This document shows, in pieces, positions 8,208 to 21,664 of a stretch of DNA of 34,087 nt. The DNA is from Aquificaceae bacterium (GTDB lineage Bacteria; Aquificota; Aquificia; Aquificales; Aquificaceae). Each line of letters opens with the position of its first letter. The stretch's first letter is position 1. The notes beneath the pieces are model-generated. The model made no database searches. It was not told the origin of the DNA and saw only the letters and a list, made by a program, of their open reading frames with translations. Position numbers and translations under genes: made by a program. Where the stretch lies: contig WFYI01000018.1 of NCBI GenBank assembly GCA_015490155.1, positions 1 to 34,087 on the forward strand, given 5' to 3'.

Positions 8208-9221
8208 ATGATTACATACAAGGATTTTGAGGGCTTAAGGCTCTCGGAGATGGGTATAGGGACTTACTTAGGAGACCCAACGGACGAGGTTGACAGCAGT
8301 TACGCACGCGTAATTGAAAGAGCTTTACGCTCGGGAATCAATGTGGTGGACACGGCAATCAACTACAGATTTATGAAGAGTGAGAAGGCGGTGGCAAAGG
8401 CTCTAAAGAATTTTGACAGAAAAGATGCCGTGATTTCCACGAAGGGAGGTTACGTTCCCTTTGACGCTGACTCCGGCGAAGACCCAAAGGATTACTTTAT
8501 TAAGAACTTTGTAGAGACGGGTGTGCTAAAACAAGAGGAGATGACACCACAGGGACACTGCATAGGTAAGGAGTTCCTGAAGTGGTGCTTCAACAAGAGC
8601 TTAGAGAACTTAGAAAGCGATTACGTAGACATTTACTTTATACACAATCCGGAGGAACAGTTCCTCTTCTTCGAACGGGAGGTGGTTTTCCAAAGGCTTT
8701 CGAAAGCCTTTGAACTTATGGAAAGTCTTGCCGAGAGTGGGAAGCTCAGGTATTACGGAGTAGCCACGTGGAACGCCTTTAGGATATCAAAGGGAGCCAG
8801 ACAGTACATATCTCTCGAGGAGCTCGTGAACTTAGCGGAGGGTGTAGCAGGGAAAGAACACCGTTTTAGAGTCATTCAACTCCCCTACAACATGGGAATG
8901 CACGAGGCTTATACCCTTAAAAACCAAGAGGTGAAAGGTAGGTTACTCTCTCCTCTGGAAGCCTGCGAAGAACTGGAACTTTACCCTTACACAAGCGCAA
9001 CTCTATATCAGGGGAACGTAGTGGGGAGAATACCTCAGGAGATAAAGACCGCTTTCGGTCTTGAGCTTGACATTCACGTAGCTATACAGTTTGTAAGAAG
9101 CACCCCAAAAATAGGCACCTATCTAATAGGAACTGGTAGGGAGGAACATCTTGAAGAGAACCTTAAGTTGTTAAATTCTACTCCTCCAACGCCGCAGGCG
9201 TTTTTATCGCTATTTAAATAA
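8208..9221 (+). CDS. Aldo/keto reductase family oxidoreductase
   Basis: A 337-aa (beta/alpha)8 NAD(P)H-dependent oxidoreductase. The catalytic tetrad is visible: D48 and Y53 (VVDTAINYRF), K79 (ISTKGG) and H146 (YFIHNP). The C-terminal part ends with a cofactor-binding region containing YLIGTGREEHLEENL. Substrate is unknown. The ATG follows the tatC stop with no gap, so the gene is cotranscribed with the tat genes, but a functional link is not evident. It ends 89 bp before dnaA. Confidence 0.88.
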   Translation: MITYKDFEGLRLSEMGIGTYLGDPTDEVDSSYARVIERALRSGINVVDTAINYRFMKSEKAVAKALKNFDRKDAVISTKGGYVPFDADSGEDPKDYFIKNFVETGVLKQEEMTPQGHCIGKEFLKWCFNKSLENLESDYVDIYFIHNPEEQFLFFEREVVFQRLSKAFELMESLAESGKLRYYGVATWNAFRISKGARQYISLEELVNLAEGVAGKEHRFRVIQLPYNMGMHEAYTLKNQEVKGRLLSPLEACEELELYPYTSATLYQGNVVGRIPQEIKTAFGLELDIHVAIQFVRSTPKIGTYLIGTGREEHLEENLKLLNSTPPTPQAFLSLFK

Positions 9222-9250
9222 CTTTCTTTCGAGTTTCGTAAGTTTATCAA

Positions 9251-9272
9251 TTCTCCGATTTAATTCGGAGAA
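9251..9272. other. Perfect 8-bp inverted repeat upstream of dnaA
   Basis: TTCTCCGA and TCGGAGAA, separated by 6 bp (TTTAAT), form a perfect hairpin between the aldo/keto reductase stop and dnaA. No run of T follows on the plus strand, so it is a poor intrinsic terminator. It could be a weak terminator, an mRNA 3' end or a protein-binding site 40 bp before the dnaA start. I see no DnaA-box consensus in this gap. Confidence 0.5.
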
Positions 9273-9310
9273 GTATCCTGTCGGCGGTCGTGTAATATAG
9301 AAAACTGCTG

Positions 9311-10552
9311 ATGGGGGGAGTAAGCAAAGCAGAGCTTTTCAGCCTTGTAGAGAAGGTAGATAAATTTGCCCTCGGGGTGTTGCAGAACTTTGAGTTTATA
9401 GAAACTCCCGGCGGAATGGTTATAGTCGCTCCTACCGAGGAGTATAGGCAGTGGATAACTAAATTCCTAAGCTCAAACTTTAAGTACCTATTGGATAAGG
9501 GTCTCGTAGAGATTTCTATTGAGGTGCCGCAAGAGGAGACTACAGACCCCTTGCAGTGTATTACCTCGGAGGGAAGTCACAACGTAAACAAGAGATATAA
9601 GTTCTCAAACTTCATAGTGGGAGAGGGCAACCGAATAGCTTACGAGGTTTGCCGTCAGGTAGTTCAAGCTCCGGGAAGTGGCTACAACCCGCTTTTCCTT
9701 TACGGCAAGGTAGGTCTTGGAAAAACACACCTCCTTCATGCGGTAGGCAACGAGGCTATTTCACAGGGATTTCGTGTGTGCTACATGTCTGCGAGCGACT
9801 TTTCCGAAGAGATGGTAGAGTTCCTACGCTCCGGAAAACTCAAGGAGTTCAGAATTAAGTACAAGTCCTTAGACTTTATACTTATAGACGACGTTCAGTT
9901 TCTATCCGGCAAGAACAGGACTCAGATAGAGTTCTTCAACATATTTAACCATCTATATTTAAAGGACAAGCAGATAATCCTTGCCGGTGATAGACCCCCG
10001 GACGAGCTTAGCGATGTGTCAGATAGGCTGGTAAGCAGGTTCGAGGGCGGGCTCGTAATAGAGCTGGGACTTGATGAAGAAACTAAGATAAAGATAATAG
10101 AGTACAAGTTAAAGGAGTTGGGTGTAGAGCCTACGGAAACGGTCGTAAACTACATATACAACAACACCGCATCGAACGTAAGAGAAATAGAGGGAAGGAT
10201 AAAGAGGTTCAAGATAAAGGGTTTTGAAAAAGAGAGGGTTAAGCCCTCCCAAACTCCTGCGAACCAAATAGAAAGGATAAAGAGGCATGTAGCCTCTTAC
10301 TTTAATATTGATGTGGAAGAGCTTTCAAAAAAGAAAACTACAAAGAAGGTGAACATGGTAAGACACATAGCCATATATCTCTGTAGGGAGTTGACGGATG
10401 CATCTATGTCGGAGATAGCCAAGGCGTTCAACCGCAAAGACCACTCCACCGTGATTAATTCTATAAAGAGAATAATGGAGGACTCAAAGAGGGACAGGAA
10501 ACTTGCCCGGATAGTTTCCTTACTCCACGGCAAGCTTAAGAAAAGAATTTAG
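9311..10552 (+). CDS. dnaA: Chromosomal replication initiator protein DnaA
   Basis: DnaA melts the replication origin as an ATP-bound filament. In this 413-aa protein, domain I plus linker take up ~95 residues. The AAA+ domain has Walker A GKVGLGKTH (132-140) and Walker B LIDDVQF with D193/D194. The C-terminal helix-turn-helix carries the signature KDHSTVINS (376-384). Domain II is very short, as in Aquifex DnaA. ATG 9311 has no upstream Shine-Dalgarno; TAATAT at 9293-9298 may be the -10 of a nearly leaderless message. dnaN and gyrB, common dnaA partners, are absent, and no obvious DnaA-box cluster is seen. The stop overlaps the convergent FBP gene by 4 bp. Confidence 0.97.
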   Translation: MGGVSKAELFSLVEKVDKFALGVLQNFEFIETPGGMVIVAPTEEYRQWITKFLSSNFKYLLDKGLVEISIEVPQEETTDPLQCITSEGSHNVNKRYKFSNFIVGEGNRIAYEVCRQVVQAPGSGYNPLFLYGKVGLGKTHLLHAVGNEAISQGFRVCYMSASDFSEEMVEFLRSGKLKEFRIKYKSLDFILIDDVQFLSGKNRTQIEFFNIFNHLYLKDKQIILAGDRPPDELSDVSDRLVSRFEGGLVIELGLDEETKIKIIEYKLKELGVEPTETVVNYIYNNTASNVREIEGRIKRFKIKGFEKERVKPSQTPANQIERIKRHVASYFNIDVEELSKKKTTKKVNMVRHIAIYLCRELTDASMSEIAKAFNRKDHSTVINSIKRIMEDSKRDRKLARIVSLLHGKLKKRI

Positions 10553-11694
10553 TCCATATCCTCTTTTTCCATAATCTTATCCTGGTCTAACTTATGCTCT
10601 TCTATGTCGTAGAACCTATTCTCGAGTTTTTTAAGGATTTTCGGAAGCGTGGTATACTCCATCTCCTCGGTAGGGAGCCTGTGAGGTTCAAATATACCTT
10701 GTCTCCTCAGCGTATCTGCCATTCTTTGAGCCTTTCTCCTCGCGCTGTCGAACGCAGGGTCGTAGAACAGGTCTGCGGGTCCTATGAGTTTACCTTCCGC
10801 TATTTGGAAGCCCGCAGCTATAACCCTTGGGGGACCGTCAAAGCGTGAGGGTCTTGCATCTTTAAAAGACACGGGCATCAAGGGTCCGTTGTGAGAACCT
10901 CTCATCCACCCTTCAACTATCCAAGGTTTTGCGAAAGGCTCGAGTATTTCCCCGACCGCAGGGAAACCGCTTTGCGCCCTAACTATCATAACGGGGTCGT
11001 CCTTGCCTACGTACTGTCCTGCTATCAGAGAAAGCCTCTGCGTAGATGCGGTAGCAGCTATTTCACCGTCGAAGTTCCTGTAAACACTTTTTACCACGTA
11101 CTTTTCCACGGAGCCTATTAAAGCCAAGAGGTCGTAAAGCTCTGCAGGGGTCGTTAGCTTAACGGCTTTACCGGAAAAGAGGTCTAATACCTCAAAGGAG
11201 AATCCGTCGTGCATCTTTGGGTCTATAACCAAGCCTGCTGTAGTCATCGGGTCTGCGAACATCTCATAGAGGGGAAGGTTCCAAGCACTGGGAGATGTTT
11301 TGTCTGCAAAGAACACTATAACCGGCTCCGAGGGTCTCTCTTCGAACTCCATCTCAGCCACGCCGGGACCCATGCCCTTTATATTTCCGCTAAAGGCATC
11401 TGTCAGCAAGTCCTGACCAGCCCCGTAGAGTTTGAGCTTTTTGGCAACTTCCGTACCGGCTTCAAAGGCTTCCCACGCTATTCTGTGAACAATTTCACTG
11501 TCCGTTCCGTGGGTGTGGGTAACCACCATAGCTATATCGTCTCCACAAGTGAGCATTTTCAAGTCCATCAATGTTCCTTTATCTACCTCTTTTCTTACGT
11601 AATTTTCAACTTCGGCAACAACTTCCGGGTGGGTTGCAGAGTGACCAACATAACCTCCTATATCAGCCTTTATCACGCTCAGGGTAATCTTCAT
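10549..11694 (-). CDS. fbp: Fructose-1,6-bisphosphate aldolase/phosphatase (bifunctional, class V)
   Basis: This heat-stable enzyme condenses triose phosphates and dephosphorylates the product to fructose 6-phosphate, driving gluconeogenesis. It is found in archaea and deep-branching bacteria. The 381 residues carry the family features: MKITLSVIKADIGGYVGH with metal ligands D11 and H18, CGDDIAM with D52/D53, the EKYVVKSVYRNFDG region near 190-205, and the conserved RGSHNGPLMPV segment. It suits an autotroph that fixes CO2 by the reductive TCA cycle and must build hexoses. The start is ATG at 11692-11694, with GGAGG 6-7 bp upstream and TATAAT at 11733-11738 on the same strand. The last 4 bp are shared with the end of dnaA. 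Confidence 0.95.
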   Translation of the reverse strand: MKITLSVIKADIGGYVGHSATHPEVVAEVENYVRKEVDKGTLMDLKMLTCGDDIAMVVTHTHGTDSEIVHRIAWEAFEAGTEVAKKLKLYGAGQDLLTDAFSGNIKGMGPGVAEMEFEERPSEPVIVFFADKTSPSAWNLPLYEMFADPMTTAGLVIDPKMHDGFSFEVLDLFSGKAVKLTTPAELYDLLALIGSVEKYVVKSVYRNFDGEIAATASTQRLSLIAGQYVGKDDPVMIVRAQSGFPAVGEILEPFAKPWIVEGWMRGSHNGPLMPVSFKDARPSRFDGPPRVIAAGFQIAEGKLIGPADLFYDPAFDSARRKAQRMADTLRRQGIFEPHRLPTEEMEYTTLPKILKKLENRFYDIEEHKLDQDKIMEKEDMD

Positions 11695-17002: not shown

Positions 17003-17776
17003 ATGGCACATGAGGCTGCTCATCACGAGGAGGTAAGTACCTGGCCGGTGATAGCCGGTATAGGTACATTTTTAGCACCTTTAGCCTTCACAGCTTACTT
17101 CGCATGGAACGCTCAAATGGCCGGTCTCGTTCTCGGAGGTGTTTCCCTTGTCCTACTTCTTATATCCGCCGCAGGCTGGGCTAACGAGCATTTTTCAACT
17201 GAAAAGGAAGAGGGCTTCGGGTGGATAGGGATATTCGCCTTCATAGTGTCCGAGATAGTTATATTCGGAACGCTCTTTGCCGGGTTTTGGATGGCACGGA
17301 CAACGCACGCCAGCGAATGGGCAAGTTGGATTCCGGAGGGTATAAACCTCGGGATGGCAGGGATACTCACCTTGATACTCTGGGCTTCGAGCTTTACGAT
17401 TTGGAAGGCTGAGGTAGCCCTTGAAGAAGAGGGAAATAACGGAAAGGCTATGACTTGGACTTTTATAACCCTCATACTCGGTGGACTGTTCGTAGTCCTG
17501 CACGTAAGCGAGTGGGTTCACCTATGGAACGAAGGGTTCACTCTGATGTCCAACATGTACGGAACCGGCTTTTACGCACTTACAGGTCTCCACACATCTC
17601 ACGTTATAGTCGGGCTTCTGTCTCAGCTTTATGCCATATGGCTCCTGGCTTCCGGAAAGATGACCAAAGAAAAGCCCACCATGATGAAAGCGGTATCCGC
17701 TTACTGGCACTTCGTTGATGTAATGTGGATGCTCGTTGCCGGAACAGCCTACGTTGTGGGAACCTTAGGGGTATAA
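17003..17776 (+). CDS. ctaE: Cytochrome c oxidase subunit III
   Basis: A 257-aa polytopic membrane protein with about seven hydrophobic segments. After a histidine-rich N-terminus (HEAAHHEE), family residues appear in FIVSEIVIFGTLFAGFW, GLHTSHVIVGLLSQLYAIWL and the closing YWHFVDVMWMLVAGTAYV. Subunit III stabilises the oxidase and its oxygen path. Having subunit III first in the operon is an uncommon order. It has a strong ribosome site (GGGAGGTG) and ends 2 bp before the Sco gene. Confidence 0.93.
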   Translation: MAHEAAHHEEVSTWPVIAGIGTFLAPLAFTAYFAWNAQMAGLVLGGVSLVLLLISAAGWANEHFSTEKEEGFGWIGIFAFIVSEIVIFGTLFAGFWMARTTHASEWASWIPEGINLGMAGILTLILWASSFTIWKAEVALEEEGNNGKAMTWTFITLILGGLFVVLHVSEWVHLWNEGFTLMSNMYGTGFYALTGLHTSHVIVGLLSQLYAIWLLASGKMTKEKPTMMKAVSAYWHFVDVMWMLVAGTAYVVGTLGV

Positions 17777-17778
17777 AC

Positions 17779-18561
17779 ATGCACAGATTGCTTCTTATAA
17801 GCGTCATGCTTTGGGCCTTTGCCCTTCCTTCTTTTTCTTTTTACAAACCTAAGGCAACCTACTTTGACCAAGATTACCTTAAGATAGACGAGACTAAGCA
17901 TCTGGGTACTTTCGTACCTGACGTAAACCTGATTTTGGAAAATGGTAGCAAGGTAAAGCTTTACGATGTTATCTCCCAAAGGCCCAACATAATATTTCTC
18001 GCCTACTTCACGTGTAATGCCTCCTGCCCTATCAGAACCACAAACCTCATAAAGGCTCTTGAGCCTCTTAAAAAGAGGGACTTTAATGTCTTGGTACTAT
18101 CCTTTGACGAGAAGGATACACTCGAAACCCTTAAAGAATACAAGAATAGGTACGGCAAGTACCCGGGTAACTGGATATTTGCTCTTATAGAGAAAGACGA
18201 CATACAGAGGTTTACGGAAGCTGTGGGATTTAGGTTCTTTTACTCGGAGGCCGACGATATGTTCGTCCACCCCAACGTTTATGTATTTGTATCTCCGGAC
18301 GGTAGGCTAACGAGATACATATACGGCGTGAACCCCAAGACACAAGACCTTCGGATAGCCCTTGCAGAAACAGAAACCAACAAGGTTACGCTCAGCTCAA
18401 TTATAGACACTGCGCTCCTCGTGTGCTTCAAGTACGACCCCTCAAGGAGTACCTACGTTGTAAACCCTGTAGTTTTTCTGGGAGGCATAGGTTTTGCCTC
18501 CTTCGGAGCTTTGATGCTCTACCTGCTTGTAAGTAAGAAACTCGCCAAAAGGGAGGTGTAA
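17779..18561 (+). CDS. sco: Sco1/SenC copper chaperone for the CuA site
   Basis: A 260-aa periplasmic thioredoxin-fold protein that delivers copper to subunit II. It has an N-terminal signal/anchor (HRLLLISVMLWAFALPSFS), the copper motif CNASCP (C79, C83) and the distal ligand H164 in FVHPNVYVFVSPDG. A C-terminal membrane helix (VVFLGGIGFASFGALMLYLL) is followed by basic residues. The double anchor is longer than the classic Sco plan. ATG 17779 begins the signal sequence; an upstream in-frame start inside ctaE would add a polar extension and is unlikely. The position between subunits III and II supports a role in CuA assembly. Confidence 0.9.
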   Translation: MHRLLLISVMLWAFALPSFSFYKPKATYFDQDYLKIDETKHLGTFVPDVNLILENGSKVKLYDVISQRPNIIFLAYFTCNASCPIRTTNLIKALEPLKKRDFNVLVLSFDEKDTLETLKEYKNRYGKYPGNWIFALIEKDDIQRFTEAVGFRFFYSEADDMFVHPNVYVFVSPDGRLTRYIYGVNPKTQDLRIALAETETNKVTLSSIIDTALLVCFKYDPSRSTYVVNPVVFLGGIGFASFGALMLYLLVSKKLAKREV

Positions 18562-18564
18562 GTG

Positions 18565-19278
18565 ATGGAACAGGTGTTTGCTCTGCCAGCCGCATGGTGG
18601 TTTGATGCGGTCAAGGTGTGGTTGGTAGTTGCGGTGGTCATTTACATAGTGACCGCTATACCGGGTGTTTACTTCATCATGAAGTACCGCTACAAGCCCG
18701 GGGAAAGAGAAATGGGCGACCACGAAAGGGAAGGACACTGGGGCTTGGAGGCAGCTTGGACTATTATCCCCACAATAATAGTTCTATTCTTGGCAACTTA
18801 CTCCTTTACAATCTTCAAGCTCCAAAGAACACCCCCAAAGGACGCTATGACCATAAAGGTCTACGGTTTCATGTGGGGCTTCCAAACGGACTACCTCGAC
18901 GATAACGGTAAGGTAATTAAAACGGTTTACTCCTTCTACAAGCCCGACAACTACGATGCGGGGGAAAACGAGAAGATAGTCGTCCCCGCAGGTAAACCTG
19001 TAAAGGCACTTCTAACCTCTAAGGACGTAATACATTCCTTCTACGTCATGCCTGCCAGAATCACAGAGGACATGGTTCCCGGTAGGATTACCCACCTGTG
19101 GTTCCAGATAAACAAGCCGGGCGAGTACTGGATATTCTGTAGGGAGTTCTGCGGAACAGGACACTCCCACATGTTCGCAAAGCTCAAGGTGGTTCCGCCA
19201 GAGGAGTTCACCGCTTGGCTTAAAGGAGATAACAAGGGTCTGGCAGAAAAAAACACTGAAACAAAAGAAAGCTTGTAA
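18565..19278 (+). CDS. ctaC: Cytochrome c oxidase subunit II (CuA)
   Basis: Subunit II accepts electrons from cytochrome c at the binuclear CuA centre. The 237-aa chain has two membrane segments (about 17-39 and 64-84) and a periplasmic cupredoxin domain. CuA ligands are H157, C192, C196, H200 and M203, seen in VIHSFY and CREFCGTGHSHM. There is no C-terminal haem c domain, so it is not a caa3 fusion. The start is ATG 18565, with GGGAGG 9 bp upstream; a GTG directly before it could add one residue. The C-terminus is a charged tail. It precedes subunit I by 12 bp. Confidence 0.94.
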   Translation: MEQVFALPAAWWFDAVKVWLVVAVVIYIVTAIPGVYFIMKYRYKPGEREMGDHEREGHWGLEAAWTIIPTIIVLFLATYSFTIFKLQRTPPKDAMTIKVYGFMWGFQTDYLDDNGKVIKTVYSFYKPDNYDAGENEKIVVPAGKPVKALLTSKDVIHSFYVMPARITEDMVPGRITHLWFQINKPGEYWIFCREFCGTGHSHMFAKLKVVPPEEFTAWLKGDNKGLAEKNTETKESL

Positions 19279-19290
19279 GGAGGTGGTAGT

Positions 19291-20907
19291 ATGAGAGAAG
19301 CTATTCCGGCAGAGAAGCCCTATTTCTTAGCTTCTCTGAGAGAGTGGATTTTTACTACCGATCATAAAAAGATCGGTATTATGTACTTCGTTACTTCCTA
19401 CATATTCTTCCTCGTAGCAGGAGTATTCGGACTCGTAATAAGGGCAGAGCAAACCCAACCCGGGTTCCAATTCGTAAGTCCCGAGTTTTACAACTATCTG
19501 CTTACGGGACACGGAGCTGTGATGCTTCTGTGGTGGGCTATAGCTGCCCACATAGGTGGGTTCGGTAACTTCCTGCTCCCTCTGATGATAGGGGCAAGAG
19601 ACGTTGCATTTCCCAGACTTAACGCCTTTAGCTTTTGGTCTTTCTTCGGTGCCAGCTTGCTCGTTCTTTTAACCCTTATACCCGGGAACCACATAAAGAT
19701 GATGTGGACTGGGTACCCTCCTTACTCCGCTACCGGTGATGCAGGTCCTACGGCTCTTTACGTATTCATAATTCACCTGATAGGTATATCATCCATAGCG
19801 GGTGCGGTGAACTTCATCACCACTTATATAAAGATGAGAGCACCCGGCATAGGTTTCTGGAATACCAACATGTTCGTCCACTGTCTAATAGGGGCAAACG
19901 TTATCCAGCTCATAGGTGTTCCTTCTCTTGCGGGTGCGGTTACGATGCTACTGCTGGACAAGTACCTCGGAACGAACTTCTACAACCCTGCAAAGGGTGG
20001 AGACCCCCTCCTTTACCAGAACGTCTTCTGGTTCTACTCCCACCCGGTTGTCTACGTTCAGGTTCTTCCTATATTCGGCTTTTTCTCTGAAATACTCCCT
20101 ACCTTCGCAAGAAGGCCGCTCTTTGGATACGTCTCTATGGTTTTCGCCGTTTGGGGAATAGTTATCTTGAGCTTTGAGGTTTGGATACACCACATGTTTG
20201 TCTCCGGTGTTCCCGATTGGGCAAGGGTGATAATGTCTTACACAACCATTCTTATAGCAGTTCCCACAGGGATAAAGATTTTTAACTGGATTGCCACCCT
20301 CCACGGAGGTGCCATAATACTCAGAACACCCATGCTGTACGCACTGGGGGGAATATTTATGTTTCTCATAGGTGGTCTTACGGGAATACCCAACGCTATG
20401 GTCGCTATAGACCTCGGTATATCCGATTCCCTATTTATAGTCGGTCACTTCCATTACGTTCTCGCTATGGCTGTCACGCTCGGAATACTCGCTGCGATAA
20501 CCTACTGGTATCCGAAAGCTACCGGAAGGATGTTCCCAGAAGGTTTAGGTAAGCTTAGCTTCTGGCTCACATTCATAGGAGCGAACCTCCTCTTCTTCTT
20601 CCAGATGGTAGTTGGTATGCTCGGAAATCCCAGAAGGTACCCGGACTACCCTGCCATACCCGAGTGGGTAATGCTCCACCAGATACAGACTGTAGGAGGT
20701 ATAATCCTCGGTCTTGGAATACTCGTGTTTACAATAGCTATGATAAAAGGGCTTAAGGGTGAAAAAGCCCCCGCAAACCCGTGGCAGTCCCCTTCCCTTG
20801 AGTGGAGGATAGATTCCCCCGCACCGGCACACAACTTCGGTGACAAGCCCCCCAAAGTAGAGCCTGACTACCACCCCTACAAGTACGGCGCACCTCCCGC
20901 TTTCTAA
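19291..20907 (+). CDS. ctaD: Haem-copper oxidase subunit I, A2-type
   Basis: The catalytic subunit, 538 aa with about 12 membrane helices. Haem ligands are H74 (TGHGAVMLLWW) for low-spin haem and H386/H388 (VGHFHYVLAM). CuB ligands are H251 plus H300/H301, with the cross-linking Y255. The D-pathway glutamate of A1 oxidases (GHPEVY) is replaced by the FYSHPVVY form. The YS pair makes this an A2-type enzyme (Pereira classification). K-pathway residues are present (AVPTGIKIFNW, K329). GGAGGTGG precedes the ATG. The operon runs III-Sco-II-I and is followed by a good terminator. Confidence 0.95.
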   Translation: MREAIPAEKPYFLASLREWIFTTDHKKIGIMYFVTSYIFFLVAGVFGLVIRAEQTQPGFQFVSPEFYNYLLTGHGAVMLLWWAIAAHIGGFGNFLLPLMIGARDVAFPRLNAFSFWSFFGASLLVLLTLIPGNHIKMMWTGYPPYSATGDAGPTALYVFIIHLIGISSIAGAVNFITTYIKMRAPGIGFWNTNMFVHCLIGANVIQLIGVPSLAGAVTMLLLDKYLGTNFYNPAKGGDPLLYQNVFWFYSHPVVYVQVLPIFGFFSEILPTFARRPLFGYVSMVFAVWGIVILSFEVWIHHMFVSGVPDWARVIMSYTTILIAVPTGIKIFNWIATLHGGAIILRTPMLYALGGIFMFLIGGLTGIPNAMVAIDLGISDSLFIVGHFHYVLAMAVTLGILAAITYWYPKATGRMFPEGLGKLSFWLTFIGANLLFFFQMVVGMLGNPRRYPDYPAIPEWVMLHQIQTVGGIILGLGILVFTIAMIKGLKGEKAPANPWQSPSLEWRIDSPAPAHNFGDKPPKVEPDYHPYKYGAPPAF

Positions 20908-20922
20908 CGGGACTCCAAAAAC

Positions 20923-20954
20923 CGGGGAGCCTTCGGGCTTCCCGAAAATTTTTT
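20923..20954 (+). terminator. Intrinsic terminator of the oxidase operon
   Basis: A GC-rich stem of about 9 bp (one G.U pair) capped by a TTCG tetraloop lies at 20923-20944, 15 bp after the ctaD stop. GAAAA and six T residues follow. This is a textbook intrinsic terminator. It is placed just 12 bp before the ATG of a small membrane ORF. Confidence 0.88.
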
Positions 20955-20966
20955 AAAATTAGAGCT

Positions 20967-21143
20967 ATGGAGAGAGAGAAGAAAAAAAGAGACCTTTCGG
21001 TACTTATAGTGGGGCTCCTTCTGGGGCTTATAGCCTTGGCTTCCTTCAGTTTCACCCTTTACAAGTACATAACCAACGAGAAAGACAGGGAGTACTTTAA
21101 GTACAGGCTTAAGAACATAAAGAAGATAGGTCCCTTTGAGTAG
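20967..21143 (+). CDS. 58-aa single-span membrane peptide after the oxidase operon
   Basis: An ORF of 58 codons from ATG 20967 to TAG 21141-21143. It begins with a basic cluster (MEREKKKRDL), crosses the membrane once (SVLIVGLLLGLIALASFSF) and ends in a charged helix (YKYITNEKDREYFKYRLKNI). The basic N-terminus puts the N-terminus inside. This size and plan is that of accessory oxidase subunits (subunit IV or IIa), and it directly follows subunit I. The oxidase terminator lies just upstream, so it depends on read-through or its own promoter: TAAAAT (20953-20958) is 8 bp before the ATG. No Shine-Dalgarno is seen. Function is inferred from position only. Confidence 0.65.
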   Translation: MEREKKKRDLSVLIVGLLLGLIALASFSFTLYKYITNEKDREYFKYRLKNIKKIGPFE

Positions 21144-21253: not shown

Positions 21254-21664
21254 ATGAACAAAGCTTCTCTGGGAAAGGTCGCCGTCGCACTCTCTATCCT
21301 GACTTTTCTATCAAGCTGCGCTACTGTTACGCGAGGCACAAAGGAGGCGCTGGTAATAGAAACCGAACCCTCAGGAGCCAGCGTAACTCTGAATGTAGAG
21401 GGTGAGGGAAGTTCAAGATTCTGCACAACACCTTGCAGCGTTCTGCTACCGAGAAAACACAGCGTCCGGGTAAAGATAGAAAAAGAAGGATACAAAACGG
21501 TTGACACAACCGTAGTTTCCGCTGTTTGCGGAGCCGGTGCCGCAGGAATGGCAGGAAACGTTATAGTGGGTGGGATTATAGGAGCCGGTGTGGACGTAGC
21601 AACGGGAGCTACGAAGTGCTTTAACCCAAACCCGCTAAAGGTTACACTCGAACCGGTCAAGTAA
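21254..21664 (+). CDS. PEGA-domain lipoprotein
   Basis: A 136-aa lipoprotein with signal MNKASLGKVAVALSILTF and lipobox LSSC (modified cysteine at residue 22). A PEGA-like beta domain follows (VIETEPSGASVTLNVEGEG, then CTTPCSVLLPRKHSVRVKIE and KEGYKTV). A glycine/alanine-rich hydrophobic stretch (around GAGAAGMAGNVIVGGIIGAG, ~95-118) may insert in or lie along a membrane. Extra cysteines (around 58, 63, 92 and 117) may form disulfides. GGAGGG precedes the ATG. It is probably an envelope structural or carbohydrate-binding lipoprotein of unknown precise role, monocistronic, with a clear terminator behind it. Confidence 0.82.
   Translation: MNKASLGKVAVALSILTFLSSCATVTRGTKEALVIETEPSGASVTLNVEGEGSSRFCTTPCSVLLPRKHSVRVKIEKEGYKTVDTTVVSAVCGAGAAGMAGNVIVGGIIGAGVDVATGATKCFNPNPLKVTLEPVK

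Follow-up and report, generated by a model that had tools for sequence, protein, structure and literature searches.

CcoQ/FixQ is a small single-helix protein of cbb3 oxidases with a basic tail, subunit IV is a one-helix accessory subunit of the A-type oxidases of Alphaproteobacteria, and Coa3 and Cox14 are mitochondrial Cox1 assembly factors dedicated to subunit I. Subunit IIa, according to the portions of two reports drawn on here, is a small single-helix protein of the B-family (ba3) oxidases of A. aeolicus and T. thermophilus that is easily missed in annotation, is encoded upstream of subunit II and replaces the helix missing from a one-helix subunit II (PMC3128077; PMC8251803). Our analysis of a 34,087-nt stretch of DNA from an Aquificaceae bacterium (contig WFYI01000018.1; hereafter the window) indicated that a 58-aa protein, here called PEP, is encoded behind an A-type oxidase locus with the following features:

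17003..17776, + strand: coxC, oxidase subunit III (PF00510, E 3.1e-21)
17725..18561, + strand: SCO1/SenC-like gene (PF02630, E 1.6e-7)
18562..19278, + strand: coxB, subunit II with two N-terminal helices (Pfam/NCBIfam models, hydrophobic segments)
19291..20907, + strand: coxA (ctaD), A-type oxidase subunit I and probable partner of PEP (PF00115, E 1.1e-141)
20967..21143 including the stop codon, + strand: PEP, gene for a 58-aa single-span membrane protein (ORF, Aquificaceae relatives, purifying selection, helix-break-helix model)

The genes from coxC to coxA occupy 17003-20907 and are preceded by a sulfide:quinone-reductase-like gene on the opposite strand; the true start of the SCO1/SenC-like gene is probably downstream of its first GTG (17725). 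The best NCBIfam model for the window CoxA was TIGR02891 CtaD_CoxA (E 6.2e-178, under that model's cut-off). In CoxB, a first hydrophobic segment starts near residues 8-24 and a second near residues 60-69, and residues 21-84 match the Pfam family COX2_TM. The PEP ORF starts with an ATG 60 nt past the coxA stop codon (20905-20907), and its product has a single hydrophobic stretch (best Kyte-Doolittle 19-mer 2.48, residues 10-28), with N- and C-terminal net charges of +2 and +3, respectively. The single-sequence AlphaFold2 model (mean pLDDT 79.8) predicted a helix at residues 2-36, a break at 37 and a second helix at 38-54. Four residues, R41, E42, F44 and L48, are invariant across 18 aligned members of the PEP family, and the helical moment of residues 39-53 was unexceptional, being reached by 18% of shuffles.

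PEP resembles IIa in being a small single-helix protein of an oxidase locus that is readily overlooked. It is unlike IIa, a B-family protein, in that its partner is A-type, its gene comes after subunit I and the subunit II of its locus has two helices. When the PEP family was compared with 10 Aquificaceae IIa-like ORFs, hhalign returned a probability of 4.7%, and IIa is a separate ORF in genomes that carry the PEP family (e.g., G004, G009 and G006). In the portion of the A. aeolicus report drawn on here subunit IIa is placed at 1541953-1542075 (PMC3128077), and at this position (~1541953) the genome of A. aeolicus VF5 (G004) has a 41-aa ORF behind coxA; the same genome also carries the PEP family elsewhere, at 92.7 kb, beside ctaA. 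The identification of PEP as IIa was rejected on the A-type partner, the two-helix subunit II, the separate IIa gene and the hhalign result. PEP is also like subunit IV of the Alphaproteobacteria in being a one-helix protein of accessory type; no Pfam subunit-IV family was among the matches listed for the window PEP or for the 18 aligned members at E up to 1, and this identification was rejected as well. The first-pass annotation of the window had likened the ORF to subunits IIa and IV, and as a statement of membership in either the likeness was unsupported: similar size and a single helix notwithstanding, these results make it very improbable that PEP is a divergent IIa or subunit IV. The closest model in role is CcoQ/FixQ (PF05545), which PEP resembles in its single helix and basic tail and from which it differs in that its oxidase is A-type, not cbb3; none of the 18 members matched PF05545.

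PEP and its counterpart in the sister genome G001 were compared over 52 codons, beginning at residue 7. The codons that differ comprise 16 synonymous and 4 non-synonymous changes, and the base differences by codon position were 5/1/19, i.e., 19 of 25 at the third position. The dN/dS ratio was 0.035 by NG86 and 0.072 by YN00. Given this synonymous excess and third-position bias, the protein is under purifying selection. Absence of the frame from relatives, which the first-pass annotation had named as grounds for dismissing the ORF, was not what we observed, since conservation of the frame extends to 38 of 136 genomes; its description of a basic, single-span 58-aa ORF at 20967-21143, after subunit I, was likewise borne out, both by selection and by co-occurrence with CoxA (see below). 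That PEP is a chance ORF without a product, as its short length and the lack of a Shine-Dalgarno-like motif might suggest, is next to impossible with a dN/dS of 0.03-0.07 and a frame so conserved. Together, these data indicated that PEP is a real gene whose protein is under selection, overlooked by annotation and conserved within Aquificaceae.

A single-protein search with PEP found relatives in close genomes. A profile (A1) of 18 rows was made from 20 loci, of which L027 was missed by the motif filter and L033 and L035 were omitted as near copies of L031. With a threshold of E 0.001, the A1 search matched 40 of the 136 Aquificota genomes; two with weak matches were then excluded, namely G050, where the match falls within a 605-residue frame, and G008, where it is partial (E 7.9e-4). 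The remaining 38 all belong to Aquificaceae (family f1), a heat-loving bacterial family, a restriction that holds within the 136 Aquificota genomes searched. A-type CoxA was detected in 48 of the 136 genomes at E 1e-60. Of the 38 genomes that have an alpha or beta CoxA, 34 carry the PEP family, as do 1 of the 10 whose only A-type CoxA is of the gamma, delta or g3 class and 3 of the 88 without A-type CoxA (G061, G027 and G086; 82, 89 and 70% complete); this amounts to 34/38 genomes with the matching CoxA clades versus 4/98 other genomes. CoxA classes were hand-assigned from identities and a 57-row CoxA tree, genome relatedness is uncorrected, and the alpha/beta assignment of G035, G078, G080, G008 and G005 relies, in part or in full, on fragments at contig edges. 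The alpha/beta genomes without the family were G070, G078, G008 and G005, with completeness of 79, 94, 76 and 69%, respectively. The PEP family is tied to particular A-type CoxA clades, as would be expected of an accessory protein dedicated to A-type CoxA. Searches for known relatives were negative: no Pfam or NCBIfam model matched the family above cut-off, a solved-structure search with PEP gave one match attributable to chance (E 0.15), no homologues were found on plasmids, the sole match in a contig scan was a sister MAG (Aquificaceae MAG JALWEG010000023.1), and a description of the family was not found in the open-access literature as judged by title or abstract start. PEP is best read as belonging to an unnamed family of accessory proteins that would be dedicated to CoxA.

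Among 54 CoxA loci, a PEP-family member lies downstream in 15 (directly in 12, with intervening genes in L024, L026 and L032), a gamma small ORF in 15, a delta small ORF in 4 and a 42-aa g3 ORF in 4; a ba3 IIa-coxB2 pair is found instead behind 9 alpha loci, and neither behind 7 loci. The non-alpha/beta A-type CoxA clades mostly have a small one-helix ORF of their own at the same position. In the gamma and delta small ORFs, as in the PEP family, a single helix is followed by a brief interruption and then a tail rich in Arg and Lys. Their profile (A2) matched 20 genomes with E values no higher than 1.4e-13, and each of these matches lies just behind a gamma/delta CoxA. All 20 genomes with gamma/delta CoxA had such an ORF, a count that is partly circular because A2 was built from loci adjoining CoxA; this circularity does not affect the co-occurrence of the PEP family with CoxA. 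By hhalign, the PEP family matched the gamma profile with 95% probability over 31 columns and gamma matched delta with 97%, against 4.7% (PEP family), 0.4% and 0.5% for the IIa negative control, and the PEP, gamma and delta families are therefore probably one superfamily. Four PEP-family loci (G063, G061, G014 and G027) were also matched weakly by A2, at E 0.001-0.008, in a search where chance matches, chiefly in long frames, were numerous. For the g3 42-aa ORFs, hhalign returned only 11.4% and 1.6%, which does not establish a relationship. A FixQ link of the gamma members was considered and rejected as too weak, PF05545 matching 2 of 16 gamma/delta members with a best E of 0.08 and 13.3 bits against a cut-off of 29. 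In a peptide tree, built from short sequences and with long-branch warnings, the window PEP groups with g7/g9/g11 peptides and not with the second copy of its own genome, and the window CoxA does likewise. PEP may represent one branch of an Aquificaceae superfamily of which most A-type CoxA lineages would have their own version.

Between coxA and PEP lie three further elements:

20923..20944, + strand: GC-rich terminator-like hairpin at the coxA 3' end (9 pairs, 7 of them G-C; conserved among relatives)
20949..20954, + strand: T6 run, with four A between it and the hairpin stem
20954..20959, + strand: TAAAAT, a -10-like hexamer 7 nt before the PEP ATG (five of the six bases of TATAAT)

A terminator 12 bp before the ATG had been reported in the first-pass annotation, and both the hairpin and the T6 run were found, the latter ending 12 nt before the ATG; to this we add the four intervening A residues and a different ground for crediting the structure. 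A terminator scan of the 7-kb region gave 9 terminator-like sites versus 8.0 expected in shuffles, and the hairpin is credible because it is conserved among relatives, not because of the scan. A GC hairpin at most 75 nt past the coxA stop codon was present in 52 of 58 loci, compared to 5.3% of shuffled and 4.2% of random same-locus stretches (1160 of each). It is present also behind most alpha coxA genes that have no adjoining small gene, and therefore belongs to the 3' end of coxA. Because it lies behind this hairpin, PEP would be made apart from the core subunits: its message would come from read-through, although in g1/g4/g6 a promoter at the start codon may supply it. The earlier proposal of a leaderless promoter of its own is plausible in these related genera, and the evidence at the window is weaker. 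Of 18 g1/g4/g6 members, 11 have an exact TATAAT 7-11 nt upstream of the ATG, 15 have a hexamer there with five or more of its six bases, and 1 has a Shine-Dalgarno-like motif, while g2/g7/g9/g11 members have TATAAT in 0 of 14 and the Shine-Dalgarno-like motif in 13 of 14, counts that are not independent since the genomes are related. The control, long ORFs of the g1/g4/g6 loci, had the exact hexamer in 5 of 167 and at least five of six bases in 27 of 167. With TATAAT so near the ATG, a nearly leaderless message would result in g4/g6. At the window, TAAAAT was equalled in 2 of 300 shuffles, but its like also precedes the 27 of 167 long ORFs noted above; the window scan listed neither a sigma-70-type promoter before PEP nor a -35-like partner, and no Shine-Dalgarno-like motif was found before the ATG. 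As a promoter element the hexamer is suggestive only. The gamma small ORFs (L076-L090) are without a Shine-Dalgarno-like motif too, and the coxA hairpin ends a few nt before the start codon of many of them.

The genetic context of the small gene also connects it with ctaA, the gene for heme A synthase. In g6, and at the second copy of the window's own genome (C20), the small gene stands behind coxA and before ctaA, which it abuts in g6; in g4 and some g6 genomes the order is tlpA, small gene, ctaA, ctaB, away from coxA. In g2/g7/g9/g11 the small gene is followed by a gene for a membrane protein with a YHS-like tail, and an orphan copy in G002 adjoins the YHS-tail protein gene, away from its coxA. 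This orphan, together with the lack of a family match above cut-off, would fit a membrane protein with another function, e.g., as a small regulator that controls respiration or membrane proteolysis, whose gene only accompanies those of the oxidase. The pattern of co-occurrence, and the recurrence of the small gene next to coxA or ctaA in differing gene orders, argue against this reading, which we consider improbable. That the small gene has CoxA as its partner is favored by two cases of natural loss. G013 (89% complete) has kept tlpA-ctaA-ctaB with no small gene among them and no A-type CoxA detected. In G001 the second coxA is separated from ctaA by a 99-nt gap in which the small gene is missing, and the window-type copy behind coxA has been kept.

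The neighboring genes suggest that PEP might be an assembly factor, holding new CoxA during heme A and copper insertion and then leaving, like mitochondrial Coa3/Cox14. The ctaA and tlpA arrangements, with a TlpA-like thioredoxin gene on one side, point that way, as do the YHS-like-tail protein downstream, the hairpin that separates PEP from the core subunits and the frequent occurrence of one PEP-family copy per genome beside two A-type oxidases. In contrast, the gamma/delta versions lie only behind coxA with no assembly gene adjoining those read (an rpsB-like gene is next in L076, L079 and L084), and G013 keeps ctaA without the small gene. PEP is like Coa3 (PF09813) and Cox14 (PF14880) in being small and single-helix, and these are possible functional analogues. 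The Coa3 model gave E 0.018 and 15.1 bits (cut-off 27) with the window PEP, matched 2 of 18 members at E <1 and exceeded its cut-off in 0 of 61 genomes, with no PEP locus among the matches listed; the Cox14 model matched 1 of 18 members (E 0.053). Coa3 homology, prompted by the Pfam E of 0.018, was rejected, since the genome and member tests fell short of the cut-off. An assembly role is a real possibility, if on the doubtful side.

We lean towards a permanent subunit over an assembly factor, although the data separate the two poorly, and give close to an even chance to the reading that PEP is a small accessory protein that docks on subunit I (CoxA) and remains with the enzyme as a stabilising subunit. 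One helix would span the membrane, with the basic second helix at or near the membrane surface, and we infer that PEP contacts CoxA physically and stays in the complex, working like CcoQ or subunit IV without detectable kinship to either. The subunit reading is supported by selection, co-occurrence, the gamma/delta counterparts, the G013 and G001 losses and the matched groupings of PEP and CoxA. Against it stand the alpha coxA genes, 15 of 17 alpha rows of the CoxA tree having no adjoining small gene, and the copies beside tlpA/ctaA in g4 and some g6; in addition, the hairpin before PEP would cut its dose and therefore suits a stoichiometric subunit less well.

If PEP is such a subunit, the A-type oxidase of Aquificaceae may contain a chain overlooked by annotation, as happened with IIa of the neighboring ba3 enzyme. 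Small partners matched to their CoxA clades could serve as natural swaps for probing the function of small oxidase subunits, and the hairpin-then-small-gene layout offers a simple case for asking whether partial termination sets subunit ratio. More broadly, a single unnamed superfamily might supply a separate one-helix partner to most of the A-type CoxA lineages in Aquificaceae, with a conserved hairpin dividing its gene from those of the core subunits and fixing its dose. Such proteins would form a new class of partners dedicated to CoxA, found in a deep-branching lineage of bacteria, with a role comparable to that of the mitochondrial Cox1-dedicated assembly proteins; taken as a whole, we regard this proposal as rather unlikely.

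Several other features were observed at these loci. The window CoxA (19291-20907) contains the motif YSHPVVY, which we take to be an A2-subtype feature; many A-type oxidases have a glutamate in GHPEVY. Behind PEP, 21254-21664 encodes a 136-aa PEGA-domain protein (E 3.6e-8) with a lipoprotein-like start, which is kept behind PEP in G001 at 83% identity. The YHS-tail protein is ~175 aa long with a C-terminal CPVC motif (weak YHS match, E 0.026; L024:8334-8861, L026:9692-10222, L038:8559-9080). Behind ctaA-ctaB in g4 and in g1/g6 relatives lies a gene for a polytopic protein of ~386-429 aa with no Pfam match (L036:11649-12809, L037:6649-7917, L039:11058-12317), which is possibly a divergent oxidase subunit I; the L039 protein has weak CoxA similarity (22%, E 2e-7). 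In g7, a V4R-domain gene lies between coxA and the small gene (L026:8714-9516, L034:9653-10153), accompanied in L026 by a hemerythrin-like gene, and in L024 a 507-aa ORF (9092-10615) occupies this place beside a coxA, that of G023, with an internal TAG. In A. aeolicus (L036:9435-9904) the small gene is present in two tandem copies, the first of which is shorter, has a TTG start and shares the C-terminal part of the second.
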